From assembly GCA_012729015.1 (NCBI GenBank), contig JAAYDY010000101.1:124001-188000 (forward strand): 64,000 nucleotides of DNA. The letters run 5' to 3'. Every line of letters begins with the position of its first letter. Position 1 is the stretch's first letter. Positions 783 through 52,205 of the stretch are shown in pieces. Position numbers and translations under genes: made by a program. The notes under the pieces are model-generated. The model was not told where the DNA came from. It saw only the letters and a list, made by a program, of their open reading frames with translations, and searched no databases. This DNA is from Phycisphaerae bacterium (GTDB lineage: Bacteria > Planctomycetota > Phycisphaerae > FEN-1346 > JAACEH01).

Positions 783-3209
783 ATGCGGAGGCGACGAAAC
801 CTCTTTTTCGCGGTGGCGGTGCTGGTGGTGTGCGGCGGATGCCGGTGGTTCGGCGGCGGCGCGTCGCCCGGCCCTGTGGCGCAGCCCCCGGCGGTGAAGC
901 ACGAGTCGGGCCCGGCGGCGTCTGCGGGAACAGGGGCGACAGACGCCGGCAGCGAGGCCGACCCGCGCCGCATCGCCGACCTCCTCCGTGGACTGGGCGA
1001 CGAGACCGTCGTCGGGGGCAATCCGGCGGGCACGGCGCCGCTCTTTCAGGGTGAGTTCGACCGCCACGTCTGCGAGGCGGCCGACCAGTTGGCGGCGCTC
1101 GGCCCGAAGGCGGCCGGCGACCTTCGCCGTGCCGCTCGCGACGGCAATCCCGTCGTTCGACGCAATGCCGCCATGGTGCTCGCCCAGCTTGGCGACGCTT
1201 CGGCCGCCGACGTGCTCTACGAGGCCGCCGAGCAGCAGGACCTCAAGCCGCTCATTCGCGGCAAGGCCATCGAGCGGCTCGTGGACCTCGCGCGGCACAC
1301 GGACCCCCCGTCGAAGGTGATCGACTTTCAGCGGCTGATGGCTGTCTTCCACGAGCGCAAGCGCGCCACCGACGGGTCGCGGCACATCCGTCGCGCGATC
1401 CTCCACGCGGCCGCCCTGACCGACGATCCGCAGGGACGCAACGTCCTGGTAGCGATGCTGGGCAGCGACGATCCGGCCTTGCGCCACGCTGCGTTGGAGT
1501 CTCTGGGCGAAGTCCAGATGACCGAGACCCCGCCGGCGGTGGTCGCAGCCCTCAACGACCGGAACCCGCGGATCGTCCTGGCGGCGATGAACACGCTGAG
1601 CCGCTGGGGCGGCGACGAGATGGCCCGCCGCTACGCCGAGCTGGTCGCCAGCGGCGACGAGTCGGTGCGCCTGGCCGCCGTCAGGCAGATGGCCCAGGCG
1701 CCGAGCAAGGACGCCGCGACGCTCCTGGCGGGGCTGCTCAAGGACCCGTCGATTACCGTGCAGCGCGAGGTGGTGGCCGCGGCCGAGAAGCTCGGCGAGG
1801 CGGGCGTCCTGGAGCAGGCCCTGGCCGTGCCGAGGTGGCGCGTCCGCAAGGCGGCCGTCGAGGCTCTGGGCCGCATGAAGTCCGTGCGGTCGCTCGGGGC
1901 GCTGGCCAGCCTGACCGGCGACGACAGCTACAACGTGCGGCTGGCTGTGGCGGCGGCCCTTGGCGAGATGGGCGTTCCGGCGGCGGCGCCGACGCTGGTG
2001 ACGTTAATGGAAGACTCGGCTGCCTCGGTGCGTCGCGAGGCGGCGGCGGCGTTCACGCAGATTTCGGGTGTCGAGCTTCACGACTACGATCCGCTTCAGC
2101 AGCCGTGGAAGAACGCCGGTGCCATTGCCCGGGCCCGCGCCTGGGCCGACGAGCACGGCAAGACGGCTGCGCCGTCTTCGGGCGACCCGGCCCGCGGAGT
2201 CGATGTCTCCAGCGGCTCGGTCGGCACGGGCGGCGCGACGGATCCGCAGGTGGCGCGGCTGATCGAGGCGCTCGCCTTGCCGCCGGGAGAGCATCGGCAA
2301 TTGGCCGTGACGTCGCTGGTGCGGATGAAGGGGGCGGCTGTGGCGCCCCTGGAGGCCGCCGTGGATGCGCGAAGCCCGGAGATCGCCACCGCGATTCTGG
2401 ACGACGTGTTGCCGGCCATCGATCCGCTCTATGCGGCCCTGAAGGAGCTTCGTGCGGCGGACGAGTCCGTGCGGCGGCAGGCGGCCATACGGTTCTCGAT
2501 TGCCGCCAAGGGGCGCCGGTTGCCGCAGGCCGCGTGGTTGCGGGCTCGCGAGGCACTGGCCGGCGAGACCGATGGCCAGGTCCGGCGGATGCTCACCGAA
2601 CGCCTCTACGAGGCCGGTTGCGCGGGGCTCGACGACACGCTGGTCCATGGACTGAAGCTCGCCGATGCGCGGTCGCGGCAGAGCGCCGCCCTGTTTCTCG
2701 GGCGGCTGAAGAGCCTCAAGGCCGTGCCGCACCTGATCGAAGCCCTGAAGGACGAGCGGACGAACGTGCAGCACGCCGCCGCATGGGCCCTGGGACAGAT
2801 CGGCGATCCGGCGGCCGTCGAGCCGCTGCGGCTGGCGCTGAGGACCCCCGACATGCAGGGGCGGCTCGCGTTCGGCGCCTCCCTGGCGCGGCTCAATCAG
2901 CAGATCGGACGCGACGAACTGATTCGCATCATGGACGAGACCGCCACCGCCGTCCAGGTCCAGGCCGTCGAGGCCATGGCCGACGCGCCCCACGCCGACT
3001 ACGTGCCCACGCTGATTCAGCGGCTCAACGACGCCAATCCGCGTCTGACTGCCGCGGCGACCGAGGCCCTGCGCAAGATCACAGGCCAGGATTTCGGCTA
3101 TCGGCCGCAGGCCCCGGCCGACGTGCGAGCCCGGGCTCTGGACGCCTGGCGGCGATGGTACGCCGACAGTCGTCAGGTCCGCACGCCCGACGGTTCGGGG
3201 CGACCGTGA
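783..3209 (+). CDS. HEAT-repeat lipoprotein (808 aa)
   Basis: The N-terminus is basic and hydrophobic and ends in the lipobox-like LVVCGGC, so the protein is probably lipid-anchored at about Cys20 and faces the periplasm. The rest is built of PBS-lyase/HEAT-type helical repeats with recurring units such as VRKAAVEALGRM, VRLAVAAALGEMG and VQHAAAWALGQIGDPAAVEPL. A first block covers about residues 90-430. A linker rich in Gly, Ser and Thr (about 455-490) separates it from a second block that ends near residue 770. HEAT solenoids bind other proteins; no catalytic motif is visible. Planctomycetes carry many such proteins, and the partner here is unknown. The gene stands alone between a divergent gene and a TIM-barrel protein 176 bases downstream. 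Confidence 0.88.
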   Translation: MRRRRNLFFAVAVLVVCGGCRWFGGGASPGPVAQPPAVKHESGPAASAGTGATDAGSEADPRRIADLLRGLGDETVVGGNPAGTAPLFQGEFDRHVCEAADQLAALGPKAAGDLRRAARDGNPVVRRNAAMVLAQLGDASAADVLYEAAEQQDLKPLIRGKAIERLVDLARHTDPPSKVIDFQRLMAVFHERKRATDGSRHIRRAILHAAALTDDPQGRNVLVAMLGSDDPALRHAALESLGEVQMTETPPAVVAALNDRNPRIVLAAMNTLSRWGGDEMARRYAELVASGDESVRLAAVRQMAQAPSKDAATLLAGLLKDPSITVQREVVAAAEKLGEAGVLEQALAVPRWRVRKAAVEALGRMKSVRSLGALASLTGDDSYNVRLAVAAALGEMGVPAAAPTLVTLMEDSAASVRREAAAAFTQISGVELHDYDPLQQPWKNAGAIARARAWADEHGKTAAPSSGDPARGVDVSSGSVGTGGATDPQVARLIEALALPPGEHRQLAVTSLVRMKGAAVAPLEAAVDARSPEIATAILDDVLPAIDPLYAALKELRAADESVRRQAAIRFSIAAKGRRLPQAAWLRAREALAGETDGQVRRMLTERLYEAGCAGLDDTLVHGLKLADARSRQSAALFLGRLKSLKAVPHLIEALKDERTNVQHAAAWALGQIGDPAAVEPLRLALRTPDMQGRLAFGASLARLNQQIGRDELIRIMDETATAVQVQAVEAMADAPHADYVPTLIQRLNDANPRLTAAATEALRKITGQDFGYRPQAPADVRARALDAWRRWYADSRQVRTPDGSGRP

Positions 3210-3385
3210 GGGGGCCGGACGGTGGTTTTGAGGCGACGGCTTGTGTCTGACCGGGCTGCCCAGTCCGGAATTCCCGGCCCGACGGGTGGACAGGGGGGTT
3301 CATTCACCGTAGGATTTCCTGGGTCGGCGCATGCGCTGGCAGGCGTATTTGCGGGACGGGGGCGTTTTTCGGAGCGAAATGTGCC

Positions 3386-4192
3386 ATGGAGATGTCGACG
3401 ATTGGCGGCGTGAAGGTGTCGAAGCTTATCCTGGGCGGCAACCCTTTCAGCGGGTTCAGTCACCAGACGCCGGAGGTTGACGATCGGATGCGTCACTGGT
3501 TCACGGCGGCGCGGATCAAGGCGTTGTTGGGGCAGGCCGAGTCGCTGGGGATCAACACGGTGATCGCGCGGGCCGACCACCACATCGCTCGCGTCCTGAC
3601 GGAGTACTGGGACGAGGGCGGCACGCTTCAGTGGTTCGCTCAGACGTGCCCGGAACTGGGCCCGACGGTCAACGGATCGCGGAACGCGGTACAGGGCGGG
3701 GCACGCGGGTGCCACATTCACGGCGGCGTGACCGACCACCTGCTGGCCGAGGGCAAGCTCGGCGAGCTTCAGGCCGACATCGACGCCCTGCGTGCCAAGG
3801 GGCTGGTGGCCGGCATGGCGGGCCACAATCCGCGCGTCTTCGAGTTCGCCGACAAGCACCTCGACGTGGATTACTACATGTGCTGCTACTACAACCCGAC
3901 GGTCCGCGACAAGAACCCCGAGCACGTTCACGGGGCCAAGGAGAAGTTCGCCGAGGAGGATCGCCGCCGCATGCTGGAGGTGATCCGGGGCCTGTCGCGG
4001 CCGGTGATTCACTACAAGGTGCTGGCCGCCGGGCGGAACGATCCGGCCGACGCCTTCGCCGTGGCGGCCCGCGCGATGCGCGCCGACGACGCGGTCTGCG
4101 TCGGCATCTACGACGAGCCCATGACCGATCAACTGGCCCGCGACGCGGCCCTGCTGGAGCGGAGCCTGAAGGCTACAGGCGATAACGTCTGA
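3386..4192 (+). CDS. Aldo/keto reductase-like TIM-barrel protein
   Basis: The 268-aa protein opens with STIGGVKVSKLILGGNPFSG, which resembles the first strand and loop of aldo/keto reductases. It continues with alternating strands and helices that fit a TIM barrel (GINTVIARADHH, GLVAGMAGHNP, PVIHYKVLAAG, AVCVGIYDEP). It is shorter than a typical AKR, and the usual Asp-Tyr-Lys-His catalytic set is not clearly present, so activity is uncertain. A GGAG lies 11 bases before ATG 3386; ATG 3392 is an alternative start. The gene is convergent with dapF, leaving only four bases between the stop codons. No signal peptide is seen, so it is probably cytoplasmic. Confidence 0.75.
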   Translation: MEMSTIGGVKVSKLILGGNPFSGFSHQTPEVDDRMRHWFTAARIKALLGQAESLGINTVIARADHHIARVLTEYWDEGGTLQWFAQTCPELGPTVNGSRNAVQGGARGCHIHGGVTDHLLAEGKLGELQADIDALRAKGLVAGMAGHNPRVFEFADKHLDVDYYMCCYYNPTVRDKNPEHVHGAKEKFAEEDRRRMLEVIRGLSRPVIHYKVLAAGRNDPADAFAVAARAMRADDAVCVGIYDEPMTDQLARDAALLERSLKATGDNV

Positions 4193-17050: not shown

Positions 17051-17082
17051 AAAACCGGCCGCAGGGATATGCTGCGGCCGGT
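17051..17082 (-). terminator. Rho-independent terminator of the PEP-CTERM gene
   Basis: A perfect 11-bp stem (ACCGGCCGCAG and complement, 17054-17082) has a seven-base loop. On the minus strand it is followed by TTTT. It lies about 40 bases after the stop codon at 17122. Confidence 0.85.
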
Positions 17083-24982: not shown

Positions 24983-25032
24983 GCCAGGGGCAGGATGCCC
25001 CTGGCACGCACGTGCGAGACGCCCGTGCCACG
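24983..25032. repeat. REP-like repeat family B, copy 3
   Basis: GCCAGGGGCAGGATGCCCC and GACGCCCGTGCCACGG are tandem palindromes matching the copy at 52034-52089. The second arm has diverged. Confidence 0.7.
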
Positions 25033-25072
25033 GTACGGCACACCCATCGGACAAGTCAAAACGCGCCTCTAT

Positions 25073-25102
25073 GGGCACACCGCACTGTGCGGTGTGCCCT
25101 TT
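25073..25102 (+). terminator. Strong hairpin, probable terminator
   Basis: Positions 25073-25085 and 25087-25099 are perfectly complementary (13 bp, GGGCACACCGCAC arm). In RNA the tip would open to a three- to five-base loop. TTTCTC follows. It lies 230 bases after the beta-helix gene. Confidence 0.6.
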
Positions 25103-43393: not shown

Positions 43394-43897
43394 TCATGGA
43401 ATCCGGCGTCCCAGCCGCTCACGAACCGCTCGCAGGTCCGCGGCGGTCACCGCTCCCGACCGGTCCACGTCCAGCCAGGGCTCTCTCCATCCTTCGACCA
43501 CCGCTCGGCGTACCGTCAGGATATCCGCGGCCGTGACCTCTCCCGAGGCGTTGACGTCGCCCTCCAGCAGGACGATGCGCACTCCCGCATCGCCACCGAG
43601 GGGCCTGCCGGTGGCCGACTTCAGGCTGTCCGTCAGCGACAGCGTGTACGCGTCGCCGTCGGGCGGCGAGGAACTCAGTCGAACCACCAGTTGCCGTCCC
43701 GCGGCGTCCCAGGAGACTTCGGCCACCAGGTCCGACATATCACCGTTGACCCGGCCCGTGATCGAGACGCAGTCCGTGTCCACCGAGGCTGGGGCGACCG
43801 TCGTCGGCAGCACCACGGCAAACCTTGTCAGCCCACCGACCTGGAACACCGTTGCACCGTCCCGCAGGACGGTGCAACGGGTTCCCTCACTGACCAC
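43394..43897 (-). CDS. Dockerin-type C-terminal fragment (possibly part of the upstream protein)
   Basis: The 167-aa frame has no signal peptide. It contains a beta-sandwich-like stretch (SITGRVNGDMSDLVAEVSWD, DAYTLSLTDSLKSATGRPLG) and a type I dockerin: LEGDVNASGEVTAADILTVR and LDVDRSGAVTAADLRAVRER, two calcium-binding F-hand repeats. It begins only at GTG 43897, with no good ribosome-binding site. It is in the same frame as the protein at 43910-47431, separated by one TGA and four sense codons. It may be the lost C-terminus of that protein, a coupled separate gene, or a relic. As a mature part it should be exported, which it cannot be alone. Confidence 0.55.
   Translation of the reverse strand: MVSEGTRCTVLRDGATVFQVGGLTRFAVVLPTTVAPASVDTDCVSITGRVNGDMSDLVAEVSWDAAGRQLVVRLSSSPPDGDAYTLSLTDSLKSATGRPLGGDAGVRIVLLEGDVNASGEVTAADILTVRRAVVEGWREPWLDVDRSGAVTAADLRAVRERLGRRIP
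43849..43880 (-). other. Perfect 14-bp inverted repeat downstream of an in-frame stop
   Basis: CCGTTGCACCGTCC and GGACGGTGCAACGG flank a four-base CGCA loop. The hairpin starts 30 bases after the TGA of the large secreted-protein gene and lies inside the dockerin frame. No T-run follows, so it is not a classical terminator. Confidence 0.8.
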
Positions 43898-43909
43898 GAA
43901 GCGTGCTCT

Positions 43910-46900
43910 TCACTCATCCGGCGGTGCATCCGGCACGTCGCGACGACCGTCGCCGTTGAAATCGCCGAGTTCGTAGGCAAGCGGGTTGACGGTTGAACCC
44001 ATGTTGCCGCCACTGCTGCCGCTGCCCAGGGCGGGGCTGGCGGCACCCGGCGTGAAGTCGCGCGTGACGGTCGTCGCGCTGCCCCAGTTGGCCACGAACC
44101 AGGCATTCGGCTGGGCCTTGGAATTGCGGACGAACGTGCTGTCGCCGGGCGAGATGTCGATGTAATCGGCCCCTACGCCCACAATGGCATGCAGGTTCCC
44201 GTCGAAGTTGATCTCCACGTTGTCGCCGACCGAGAAGCCTGTGGTGGTCATGAAGATGCGGGTCGCCGTGGGCTTCACGTCGCGGGACAACCTTCGGAAC
44301 AGCACGGGAGTGTTGGTCAGCAGAAGCTCGCTATTGTAGCTGTGGGCATCCTGGCCGCTGGCGTTCAGGTAATCGTCCCAGGTCCACGAGTACGCCTGGC
44401 CCCAGAGCACCGGCGAGGCTGTGGTCTCGCGCCTGTAGTAGGCGTTGTAGTCGGCCGTGTAGTATGGCTTGTTGGCGTCATTGACGTTCAGGCAGCGCCC
44501 CGTATGAAGTGTGTCTGCGACGTTGTCGAAGAACGCGCCCGTCTGCGGCAATCCGGCCTTGTGATTCCAGCTCATCGGCTGGTAGCCGACGCCAATGACC
44601 GTGTTGTGGTGCGCCTCGACCTCCAGGCTGCCCAGGATCAGACTGCTGTCGCACGAGCCAAAGGCGATGTTGTTCAGCAGGACGACCTTGCGGCACTGCT
44701 CGCTCATCAGGTTCTGCGAAGCGCCCACCAGATAGCAACTGTCAATTGTCAGTTGATCGAGGTTTCCGAACGTCTGGATGCTGTCCGGATGGTTGGTCCC
44801 CAACTGGTGGTGGACATAGCTGTGGGCCACCACGTGATTCAGCACCGCCGGCTTGTCTGTTCCTTTGCCCTGGCATCGAATCCCGTCCTCCCAGTTGTGA
44901 GACACCTCGCAATACCGGACCGAGCTGTTGTCGCCGCTCAGCGTAATCCCCATCCTGTTGCCCGTCACAAGGCACTTGCTGATGTGCGTGTCGCTGCCGG
45001 TGAAGGCAAGCCCGGTCTGGGCATTGTCCCTGACCACGCAGTTGCGCACCACGTAGCCTGCGCCTGTCGGGCTGTAGCCGATCCCGGCGCCCTGGACGTG
45101 CCGCACCTCCAGGTTGTCAAACGTCCAGTGGTTGTTGGCCGTGTTGAACTTGATGCCGTAGGTGCGATGGTCGGCCTCCACCACGTAGCTGTCGGGTGTG
45201 CCGCCGCCGGCCGGCCAGCAGAACACGCGGTACGTTGTCTCGTCGACCTTCTCCACGGCCCACTGTCCGGCGCCGCTGATGAACTCGACCTTGTGCTGGA
45301 AGAAGTAGAGGTCACTCGTGACGCAGGAGGTGCTCTTGGCCGGCGTGAAGGTGATTGTGCCGGTGGCGGGGTCAAACCCTGTGACCGTGCGCGAGTAACT
45401 CATGCCCACCCCGCCCCGGTACACCAGATTGGCGCCCAGCCAGTACCCGGCCGCCTGCTGAGTCAGATGCACCGTGTCCTGGAACGTGGTTGTCGTGCCG
45501 GTGGCCGTCGGAGACCAGAGCTCATTCTCAGGCGAACTGGCGATGGTCAACGCCACGTCATCCTGGATGAGCATGGACGGCTGCCAGTCAATGTCCTTGC
45601 AGTAGATGCTGGCCCAGTTCGGATTGTTGCGGGCGGTCTGCTGCGTGCACTGCGTCCAGCCCGTCAACACGTCCGCGCCGGTCAGCACGACCTTCTCGAA
45701 AGGGGCGCCCATGAGGGTGATGCGACCGGCGTCGTCCTGTCCGGGACGGTTGATGTTCAGACCCTCGCGGTAGACGCCGCCCTTGACCATGATCGCCTGG
45801 CCGCTGCCGGAGGCAGCCGCCGTCACCGACTTGCCGATCGTCTTGAACGGCAGCGCGGCGGTGCCTGGATTCGTGTCGCTCGCGCCGGGATTGTTTGTGT
45901 CGACGTAGAAGTCGATCTTCGGCGTCACCCAGTAGCGCACGACCGTCCAGCCTGTGCCGCCGCTGTTGTCCACCACGCACAGGCCGATGTCGTGCAACCC
46001 GACGGGCAGCGAGGCGTTCACCGACGATCCGCTGCCGATCGGTTCGCCGTCGTAGTCGAACCAGTGGTACTCCACGACGGTTCCGTCGCTGTCGGATGAG
46101 GCGGCGCCATTGAGGGTGACGCTCGCCAGGCCGTCGTCGTCGGCATCCTCCACACTCTGGTCCTGGCCGGCATTGGCCACGGGCGGCTTGTTGACGACGA
46201 TGGTCACCGTGTCGTCATCGGTTCCGGACTGGTCGTTGGCCACCACCAGGGCAATCACATGAGTGCCTGTCGGCAGCACCACCTGCGGCGCAACACCGGT
46301 CGCGATCTGCGTGCTGGCGATGCTCCAGGCATAGCTGACAATCGTGCCGCCCTCGTCGTGCGAGCCGGAGCCGTCAAGCGTCACCGTTTCCTCATCATCG
46401 CCGTCATCGTCATGGACTGTCTGATCCTCCCCGGCATCGGCTTCCGGAATGTTGCTGACGGGAATGACCACCTGAAGCGCCTTGCCGTCGTTACTGACCT
46501 GGACCGTCCAGCCGGAGCCGGCAGGGACCACCAGGACGATGTCGTCGAGGCTGCCGGTCCAGGCACTCGTGAGCCGCACCAGGTCGTACGTTCCGGCGGC
46601 CACGTCGCCGGCCGTCAGCCCGTCGAGCACGCCCAGCTCGATGGTCGGGTTCGCGCCGTCGGTGGTCCCCAGGACGAACGTGTCGGCATCAATCGGCGTG
46701 ACGCCGGTCGCGCCGAAGTTGAAGGTGAGCGTATGATAGAGTTGCAGGCTGTTGACGACCTCGATCGTCCTGGTGATGCCTTGGACGGTCCAGAGACCGT
46801 TGACCTCGAACCGGCCGCTGCCGCAGTTGGCGCTGGTCAGCGTGGCGCCTGCATTGCCGACCAGCAGGCCGGAGAACGTCGCGTGACCGCCGGAGATCAC

Positions 46901-47431
46901 ATACTGGGCTTGTACGTTGGTTTTCTGAGTGCCGCCGTGGCCGACAGTGAACGTGTTGGAAGCATTCATGAAGCCGCCGGTCTGGTTGACGTAGAGCCGC
47001 GAGTCGTTCTGGTTGGCATAGGCTCTCACCAGGTTGAGGGTGCCGCCACTGACGTTCAGGCGGCTTTCGCCCTCGACGCCCCCGGATACGCAACCGTTGA
47101 AGATCAGCGTGTTGTCGGTGGTGGCGGTGCCTCCGTCCACATGGAGGGTGCCGAGGGTGCCTGCGCCGCCCAGGAAGTTGTTCTGGCCGCGGAAGTCCCA
47201 TGTGCCTTGGACCGTCACCAGGCCGCCACCGTAGATCTTGACCACGACGCCTCCATCGGTGGCGCTGCCGGCAGGCGTAATGAGGACATTGTCGGTGATG
47301 TCGCCTCCCAGAGTCTGTCCAGTGGTGTCGATAGTCCGGTCATAGACAATGTCCGCCACGGCGTTTGCGGCGGGCGCCAGGATGACGGCCAGGGCCGCCA
47401 GAACCATGAAACTCAACCTGTACTGTCTCAT
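43910..47431 (-). CDS. Large secreted protein: N-terminal beta-repeat, two PKD domains, beta-helix
   Basis: The 1173-aa precursor has a signal peptide (SFMVLAALAVILAPAANAVA). A Gly/Thr-rich beta-solenoid follows (about residues 30-320, with LVTVQGTWDFRGQNNFLGGA and VNQTGGFMNASNTFTVGHGG). Two PKD-like domains come next (ADAGEDQTV and ANAGQDQSV, about 325-520). A right-handed beta-helix starts at FYVDTNNPGASDTNPGTAAL (about 530) and runs to about 1000. The end reads YELGDFNGDGRRDVPDAPPD, a calcium-loop-like motif cut by TGA. Such proteins bind or process polysaccharides outside the cell; catalytic residues are not assigned. ATG 47431 has AAGGA nine bases upstream. The dockerin fragment lies directly after the stop in the same frame. 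Confidence 0.87.
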   Translation of the reverse strand: MRQYRLSFMVLAALAVILAPAANAVADIVYDRTIDTTGQTLGGDITDNVLITPAGSATDGGVVVKIYGGGLVTVQGTWDFRGQNNFLGGAGTLGTLHVDGGTATTDNTLIFNGCVSGGVEGESRLNVSGGTLNLVRAYANQNDSRLYVNQTGGFMNASNTFTVGHGGTQKTNVQAQYVISGGHATFSGLLVGNAGATLTSANCGSGRFEVNGLWTVQGITRTIEVVNSLQLYHTLTFNFGATGVTPIDADTFVLGTTDGANPTIELGVLDGLTAGDVAAGTYDLVRLTSAWTGSLDDIVLVVPAGSGWTVQVSNDGKALQVVIPVSNIPEADAGEDQTVHDDDGDDEETVTLDGSGSHDEGGTIVSYAWSIASTQIATGVAPQVVLPTGTHVIALVVANDQSGTDDDTVTIVVNKPPVANAGQDQSVEDADDDGLASVTLNGAASSDSDGTVVEYHWFDYDGEPIGSGSSVNASLPVGLHDIGLCVVDNSGGTGWTVVRYWVTPKIDFYVDTNNPGASDTNPGTAALPFKTIGKSVTAAASGSGQAIMVKGGVYREGLNINRPGQDDAGRITLMGAPFEKVVLTGADVLTGWTQCTQQTARNNPNWASIYCKDIDWQPSMLIQDDVALTIASSPENELWSPTATGTTTTFQDTVHLTQQAAGYWLGANLVYRGGVGMSYSRTVTGFDPATGTITFTPAKSTSCVTSDLYFFQHKVEFISGAGQWAVEKVDETTYRVFCWPAGGGTPDSYVVEADHRTYGIKFNTANNHWTFDNLEVRHVQGAGIGYSPTGAGYVVRNCVVRDNAQTGLAFTGSDTHISKCLVTGNRMGITLSGDNSSVRYCEVSHNWEDGIRCQGKGTDKPAVLNHVVAHSYVHHQLGTNHPDSIQTFGNLDQLTIDSCYLVGASQNLMSEQCRKVVLLNNIAFGSCDSSLILGSLEVEAHHNTVIGVGYQPMSWNHKAGLPQTGAFFDNVADTLHTGRCLNVNDANKPYYTADYNAYYRRETTASPVLWGQAYSWTWDDYLNASGQDAHSYNSELLLTNTPVLFRRLSRDVKPTATRIFMTTTGFSVGDNVEINFDGNLHAIVGVGADYIDISPGDSTFVRNSKAQPNAWFVANWGSATTVTRDFTPGAASPALGSGSSGGNMGSTVNPLAYELGDFNGDGRRDVPDAPPDE

Positions 47432-48219
47432 TGATGGGTTCCTTTCCGAATTGTTCAAGTGACGTGGGACACGCTGCTGCGTGACGACACACTCGCCCAA
47501 AGACAGCCCATGATCGTCGGCGTTGCTGTGAGACCCCCGTGGTCCTCACACAGAACCGACCGCGGGTGGACAGACGCAGAAGAAGTGACGCCTGGGGGCA
47601 GATCGGCGCGATCGGTTCCATCCGAAGGGCGCAGGCATCCAACGGCCCGCCCTCGCGCATCAGCACAGACCGCCCGGGCTCCGGATGAGGCGAAATGCCG
47701 GCCCCAGCCCCGAAGGGATCAAGCGGTTGATCATCGTCCGTTTAGACTATACACCGAAAAGAGGGGTTGTCAAGTGACTTCTTCCTCGGCTTCGGCTGCC
47801 GCACCTGTTTAAGGCAGGGCCCAGGGGGTGAAAGGCTGGGGAAGAGAGGGGGGCATGTCTCGCGGACCGTCGCGGGTTCCGGGCAGTCGTCCTGCCAAAG
47901 AGGGCGGCGGGCGGGGTCGGGCTTCTGCCAAAATGGCAGGGGGAATCCGGGGCGCCGATCTGTCTGGCGGCCGCGAGGACGGGCGCAAGAGCATTGAAAA
48001 GGGGGATTTGCTGCTTTGGGGGCGGGTCGTGGTTCGGTGTGGCACGCACTTTGCAAAGGACCTGGCATTCAGACCGCTCACCGTTTGCGCCTTGCGGGCG
48101 AGGGGCGGCCGTGGTACAAGGATGGTTTCCGGCCGTGAGTGAGGGCTCCGCCAGGGGCCGTGGGGCCGGAAACGTGGGCATCAACCGAGTGTTCCAGAGA
48201 AAGGGAGGATGCAGCAGCC
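47432..48219. other. Long intergenic region between the secreted-protein gene and groEL
   Basis: The minus-strand promoter is at 47746-47773. On the plus strand TTGATC (47727) and TATACA (47748) with a 15-base spacer could form a weak overlapping promoter toward groEL. The rest is G-rich, with no clear gene. I found no CIRCE element (TTAGCACTC with its repeat) and no sigma-32-type promoter, so the heat-shock control site is not identified. Confidence 0.45.
47746..47773 (-). promoter_or_regulatory. Strong sigma-70-type promoter for the large secreted-protein gene
   Basis: On the minus strand, a perfect TTGACA (47768-47773), 16 bases and TATAGT (47746-47751) predict a start near 47739. The mRNA leader is about 300 bases. 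Confidence 0.7.
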
Positions 48220-52033: not shown

Positions 52034-52089
52034 GGGGCAGGGCCAGGATGGCCCTGCCACGCACGGGCAAGATGCCCGTGCCACGGCAC
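52034..52089. repeat. REP-like repeat family B, copy 4 (best-preserved)
   Basis: Two perfect or near-perfect tandem palindromes, GGGCCAGGATGGCCC and ACGGGCAAGATGCCCGT, are linked by GCCACGC. It is inserted between groEL2 and dnaJ. Confidence 0.8.
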
Positions 52090-52205
52090 ATTGACGCGAC
52101 AAGAGGCGGGCCAGGCGGCGCAAGACTCGTCTGGCCCGCAGACTTCTCAGTGGATGAAGTGTTCGGGCGGGCCTGGGGGTCCGTTCGTGTGAAGGGCGCC
52201 GTGCG

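Follow-up and report, generated by a model that had tools for sequence, protein, structure and literature searches.

Introduction

In bacterial genomes, in-frame stop codons are common, and most of them are short-lived, with few or no mismatches in the sequence around them; conserved in-frame stops with dN/dS below 1 have also been described, in which the part downstream of the stop is under purifying selection (Belinky et al. 2021, PMC7918605). Functional read-through is described from viruses and eukaryotes, including the MDH1 and LDHB genes, where a leaky UGA leads to a C-terminal extension that redirects the protein (PMC5133446, PMC4359377). In E. coli reporters, UGA is the leakiest stop and is read almost always as Trp, a G at position +4 gives the leakiest context, and mRNA structure is not predictive of read-through (PMC11126739), while a +4U is known to strengthen termination (PMC5289835). 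In bacterial selenoprotein genes, an in-frame UGA is followed by a hairpin within the coding frame, the SECIS element, which lies immediately downstream of the UGA and has a conserved G in its loop (PMC1088965). Type I dockerins are composed of two calcium-loop repeats and form the C-terminal end of secreted multidomain proteins. Programmed read-through in bacterial chromosomal genes has, to our knowledge, rarely been documented beyond selenocysteine and pyrrolysine.

In the window, which is the whole stretch of 64,000 nucleotides analysed here, a gene for a secreted PKD/beta-helix protein ends in TGA, and the same frame continues through a perfect hairpin into an Ig-like region and a dockerin, an arrangement reported by a first-pass annotation and confirmed in this study. 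The occurrence of a UGA and a hairpin ahead of the dockerin in three related secreted proteins suggests that ribosomes may sometimes read past the stop and generate a longer form. Like the conserved stops of Belinky et al., the present one is followed by a part under purifying selection, whereas it differs from the mostly short-lived stops of that study in being old, in lying at a domain boundary, and in having a hairpin in three paralogues. Relative to the viral and eukaryotic examples, this case is bacterial, its read-through is putative, and its stem is too distant from the stop to fit the usual geometry. The base at +4 is A, and +4U is absent at this junction. Among the papers searched, none combines dockerin, stop codon, and readthrough. 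The candidate is compact: the arrangement is present in three copies, the same genome supplies fused controls, and the hairpin has kept its pairing through changes; if the reading is true, whether a secreted protein bears its C-terminal binding module would be decided post-transcriptionally.

Organization of the Junction

Table 1. Features of the stop-hairpin junction in the window and of the two related stop loci in the same genome
Feature	Position	Strand	Remarks
Promoter-like TTGACA-16-TATAGT	47746..47773	-	11/12 consensus bases; consensus match only
Secreted PKD/beta-helix protein	43910..47431	-	1173 aa, from ATG 47431 (most likely start) to TGA
In-frame TGA at module boundary, then AGA-G	43910..43912	-	Same position and stop in C27 and C93
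Ig-like (Big_5-like) part of extension, including hairpin-coding linker	43562..43909	-	
Perfect 14-bp hairpin, 4-base loop	43849..43880	-	CCGTTGCACCGTCC-TGCG-GGACGGTGCAACGG
Type I dockerin, two calcium-loop repeats	43412..43561	-	PF00404, 30.5 bits
Final TGA of extension	43394..43396	-	
C27 stop locus	TGA 6710-6712 of contig C27	-	Isolated extension frame, outside window
C93 stop locus	TGA 224244-224246 of contig C93	-	Isolated extension frame, outside window

The features of the junction are listed in Table 1. The start codon given there for the upstream gene follows the Shine-Dalgarno-like GGAAAGGA and replaces TTG 47500, which had been assigned earlier. The encoded protein comprises PKD domains and a right-handed beta-helix region together with a signal peptide assigned by eye (MRQYRLSFMVLAALAVILAPAANA), and its C-terminal end before the TGA reads ...GDFNGDGRRDVPDAPPDE, also given as ...LGDFNGDGRRDVPDAPPDE. 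The promoter-like site is situated about 300 bases ahead of the start codon. The interval between this good match and the gene start (window 47432-47745) corresponds to an untranslated leader of about 300 bases; no Rfam family was matched in the window.

Past the TGA, the frame indeed stays open, for 171 codons up to the final TGA. The claim of a complete type I dockerin behind the stop is borne out, since the Dockerin_1 match in Table 1, covering residues 117-166 of the extension and profile positions 2-56 of 57 with both repeats, exceeds the Pfam cut-off of 22.9 bits. The preceding region, originally described as sandwich-like, matches Big_5 only below threshold (14.0 bits against a cut-off of 23.6 bits), but it is homologous to the corresponding region of fused paralogues. 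As had been noted, the dockerin frame has no signal peptide; it also has no start codon common to the related loci. An AlphaFold model of the extension computed with no alignment reached a pLDDT of 45, too poor for use.

The first base of the hairpin is the 30th after the TGA, in agreement with the earlier description, and beyond a one-base bulge five further pairs widen it to 43843-43885 (19 bp). Its RNA folding z-score is -5.2, and it is the sole perfect stem of at least 13 bp (loop 3-8) within the 64-kb window. At the junction, Rfam matches are at chance level only and no promoter-like site is present. Other perfect hairpins of 10-12 bp are located between or beside gene ends, at window positions 17054-17082, 24983-25005, 25073-25099, and 52036-52058; two of these adjoin a repeated stretch of the CGTGCCACGG/CCGTGGCACGGGC type (about 24983-25060 and 52036-52100), which is perhaps a dispersed repeat.

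Recurrence and Conservation in the Same Genome

The genome of the same bacterium (4.45 Mb in 122 contigs, 94% complete) was searched with the 171-aa extension as the query, and 11 clear relatives were found besides the window copy. Nine of them contain no stop ahead of the Ig-like/dockerin unit, eight lying in larger frames and one, on contig C91, being short, and all fused relatives that were read are secreted. The remaining two stand alone, as frames of 171 and 174 aa on contigs C27 and C93, and directly before the TGA in both a PKD/beta-helix protein is again encoded, which means that the isolated Ig-like/dockerin frames of this genome are found right behind the in-frame TGA of such a protein in 3/3 cases. 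In C93, the upstream part ends ...VDVGAYEYAP, where the fused beta-helix paralogue on contig C97 continues with no stop into the same extension; the TGA therefore lies at a module boundary. Amino-acid identity among the three stop loci amounts to 72% and about 41-43%.

At all three junctions the sequence reads TGA-AGR-G, the distance from the TGA to a conserved Gly-Leu is 28 codons and free of gaps, and the 14-bp stem occupies the same codon register. Five of its 14 pairs have changed with pairing kept (A-T to G-C, G-C to C-G, T-A to G-C, T-A to C-G, and C-G to G-T), and in C93 the loop-adjacent pair is broken and an outer pair is gained instead. Measured against synonymous recodings, the longest stem is exceptional at each stop locus, with no 14-bp stem among 5000 recodings of the same peptide for the window copy and P values of 0.011 for C27 and 0.025 for C93; in seven fused paralogues tested likewise, the longest stem is unexceptional and no such hairpin exists. 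When folding energy is compared with synonymous recodings, the window and C27 copies are strong (z -3.7), but C93 alone is not (z -1.2). Within this genome, a covariance model of the element finds matches at these three places only.

About 22 codons ahead of the TGA, base identity between the window and C27 climbs from 54% to 76%. The bodies of the two proteins are 22-51% alike in amino acids, compared with 71-74% in the tail region; the segment from tail through stop and hairpin to dockerin thus behaves as a single cassette carried on dissimilar bodies. In a tree of the copies, the stop loci appear as a single origin in 67% of bootstrap trees, and judging from this the three loci probably share one origin, in which case they would not be independent inventions and the recurrence would reflect maintenance more than repeated invention.

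Selection on the Extension

Between the window and C27, the dN/dS of the extension is 0.30 by NG86 and 0.16 by YN00, with a dS of about 0.6-1.0, which is higher to C93. Differences at the three codon positions number 28/23/58 after the hairpin in the comparison with C27 (P 5e-5) and 67/68/109 over the whole extension in the comparison with C93 (P 9e-4). As read from these substitution patterns, the extension is evolving as a coding sequence under purifying selection. The same in-frame stop is kept at three loci while their surroundings diverge, and protein-coding selection is detected downstream of it, as expected of read-through, except in the first 27 codons. There, replacement codon changes outnumber synonymous ones (6 versus 3), showing no protein-level constraint, and the motifs of the fused forms are lost; conservation of this stretch therefore acts on the nucleotides more than on the protein. 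Synonymous change between the window and C27 is likewise lower in these 27 codons than in the rest of the extension (3/21 versus 43/102, P 0.024).

Proposed Mechanism and Alternative Explanations

The comparison of the three loci gives an even chance, in our estimate, that the TGA and hairpin constitute a long-lived read-through junction at the module boundary. Under this mechanism, most ribosomes would stop at the UGA and release the tail-less secreted PKD/beta-helix protein, and a fraction would insert an amino acid at the UGA, probably Trp through near-cognate tRNA-Trp, and translate onward past the hairpin, through the Ig-like region and the dockerin. A single mRNA would thereby yield two proteins, one with the tail and one lacking it. 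By analogy with the fused relatives, read-through of the UGA would be the simplest route to placing the extension on a secreted protein, and it is favoured by the lack of a promoter-like site at the junction, of a signal peptide in the extension frame, and of a start codon common to the three loci. A more specific proposal, tentative and falling short of an even chance, is that UGA-AGR and the conserved hairpin form a bacterial cis element that programmes read-through at the domain boundary, sets the share of dockerin-tailed protein, and accompanies the dockerin cassette in several genes of this one genome. Starting 25-30 nt past the UGA, the stem is too distant to touch a ribosome waiting at the stop codon or to provide the usual direct stimulation; conceivable roles of the hairpin are a slowing of the translating ribosome, the concealment of a start site, and an effect on transcript ends. 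The occurrence and level of read-through, its raising or regulation by the hairpin, and a binding partner of the tail are what we infer from these patterns.

An explanation considered somewhat unlikely is that the UGA is a true stop, the hairpin being terminator-like or protecting the 3' end of the transcript and the dockerin part being a silent remnant or a gene-conversion donor cassette. It agrees with the fact that hairpins 20-60 nt past stop codons are typical of transcript ends, with the finding that the window's other long hairpins border gene ends or lie between them, and with the closer likeness of the window and C27 tails than of their bodies, as gene conversion would leave. An intrinsic terminator, however, consists of a GC-rich hairpin and then a T-run, and behind the hairpin present here no T-run is found, the tail on the gene's strand reading TGTTCCAG; the canonical form is for this reason absent, and a terminator scan does not list the site. 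The frame of the extension and its coding pattern of change are moreover kept even against the distant C93, and the codon register of the hairpin and its distance to the Gly-Leu are constant in all three loci. A coupled second cistron, in which the first protein terminates at the UGA and the dockerin part is translated separately, either through re-initiation or from a start codon in the hairpin that an upstream ribosome makes accessible, is judged unlikely. In both the window and C27, codon 21 is a GTG that falls within the 3' arm of the stem, the stretch upstream of this GTG pairs with the anti-Shine-Dalgarno sequence at -7.8 kcal/mol, and protein-level constraint begins only past the hairpin. 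Yet no ATG, GTG, or TTG occurs in frame in C93 ahead of codon 29, so that a start with its ribosome-binding site near the stop is not kept throughout, the GTG being found at 2/3 loci; the product would also begin after the first Ig-like strand and lack a signal peptide, which is seen in none of the three frames, whereas all fused relatives read are secreted. Relatives with two separately signalled genes, named in the first-pass annotation as a refutation of its observation, were not found.

That an ordinary fused gene has suffered a recent nonsense mutation or a sequencing error is effectively excluded: fused paralogues do exist, but the same TGA and hairpin occupy an identical codon position in three loci that have diverged, which also rules out a base-calling error at the TGA, and the dS between two of the copies contrasts with the short-lived stops of PMC7918605. 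Selenocysteine insertion or another dedicated recoding of the UGA, with the hairpin as a SECIS-like element, was suggested by the order of UGA and hairpin; it is hardly conceivable and is rejected, given that the 94% complete genome yields no tRNA-Sec (the best match being a tRNA-Ser) and no SelB over the cut-off, that about 44 nt separate the loop from the UGA and the C93 loop lacks a G, in conflict with the geometry in PMC1088965, and that the fused relatives have no Cys at the position of the TGA. Among the three options left open by the first-pass annotation, read-through thus stands as the best and is strengthened by the paralogues, the coupled gene is weakened, and the recent nonsense mutation has lost its support.

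Dockerin Partner and Distribution

Although the extension resembles the modules of other type I dockerin proteins, it is placed behind a stop codon, and no match to cohesin (PF00963) at E 0.001 was obtained in this 94% complete genome, which contains at least 24 dockerin matches. A cellulosome-type dockerin-cohesin pair involves a cohesin in the same genome; since none was found, the designation of the tail as an anchor is unproven, and the dockerins of this genome must bind either a different kind of partner or a cohesin so divergent that PF00963 misses it.

In a phylum sample, 5/392 genomes contain the Ig-like/dockerin unit at E <= 1e-8; the unit is nearly confined to the family of this bacterium, one other examined genome of which has fused copies only. 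Scans of GTDB contigs for the same arrangement gave no relative, and 12 short dockerin frames in other genomes proved to be either fragments at contig edges or independent frames, and none follows the in-frame TGA of a secreted protein.

Two further observations concern the C-terminal tails of this genome. The short relative on C91 (locus G000:C91:2500-6500, reverse strand 2605-3429) is a secreted protein with its own signal peptide and little beyond it apart from the same Ig-like/dockerin unit. The gene just before the stop-hairpin gene of C27 (G000:C27:5500-11500, reverse strand 1-1308) encodes a PEP-CTERM-like tail, IPEPATMALLGVGAASVFLGRRRRHG, and C-terminal sorting or anchoring in this genome therefore relies on more than one tail.
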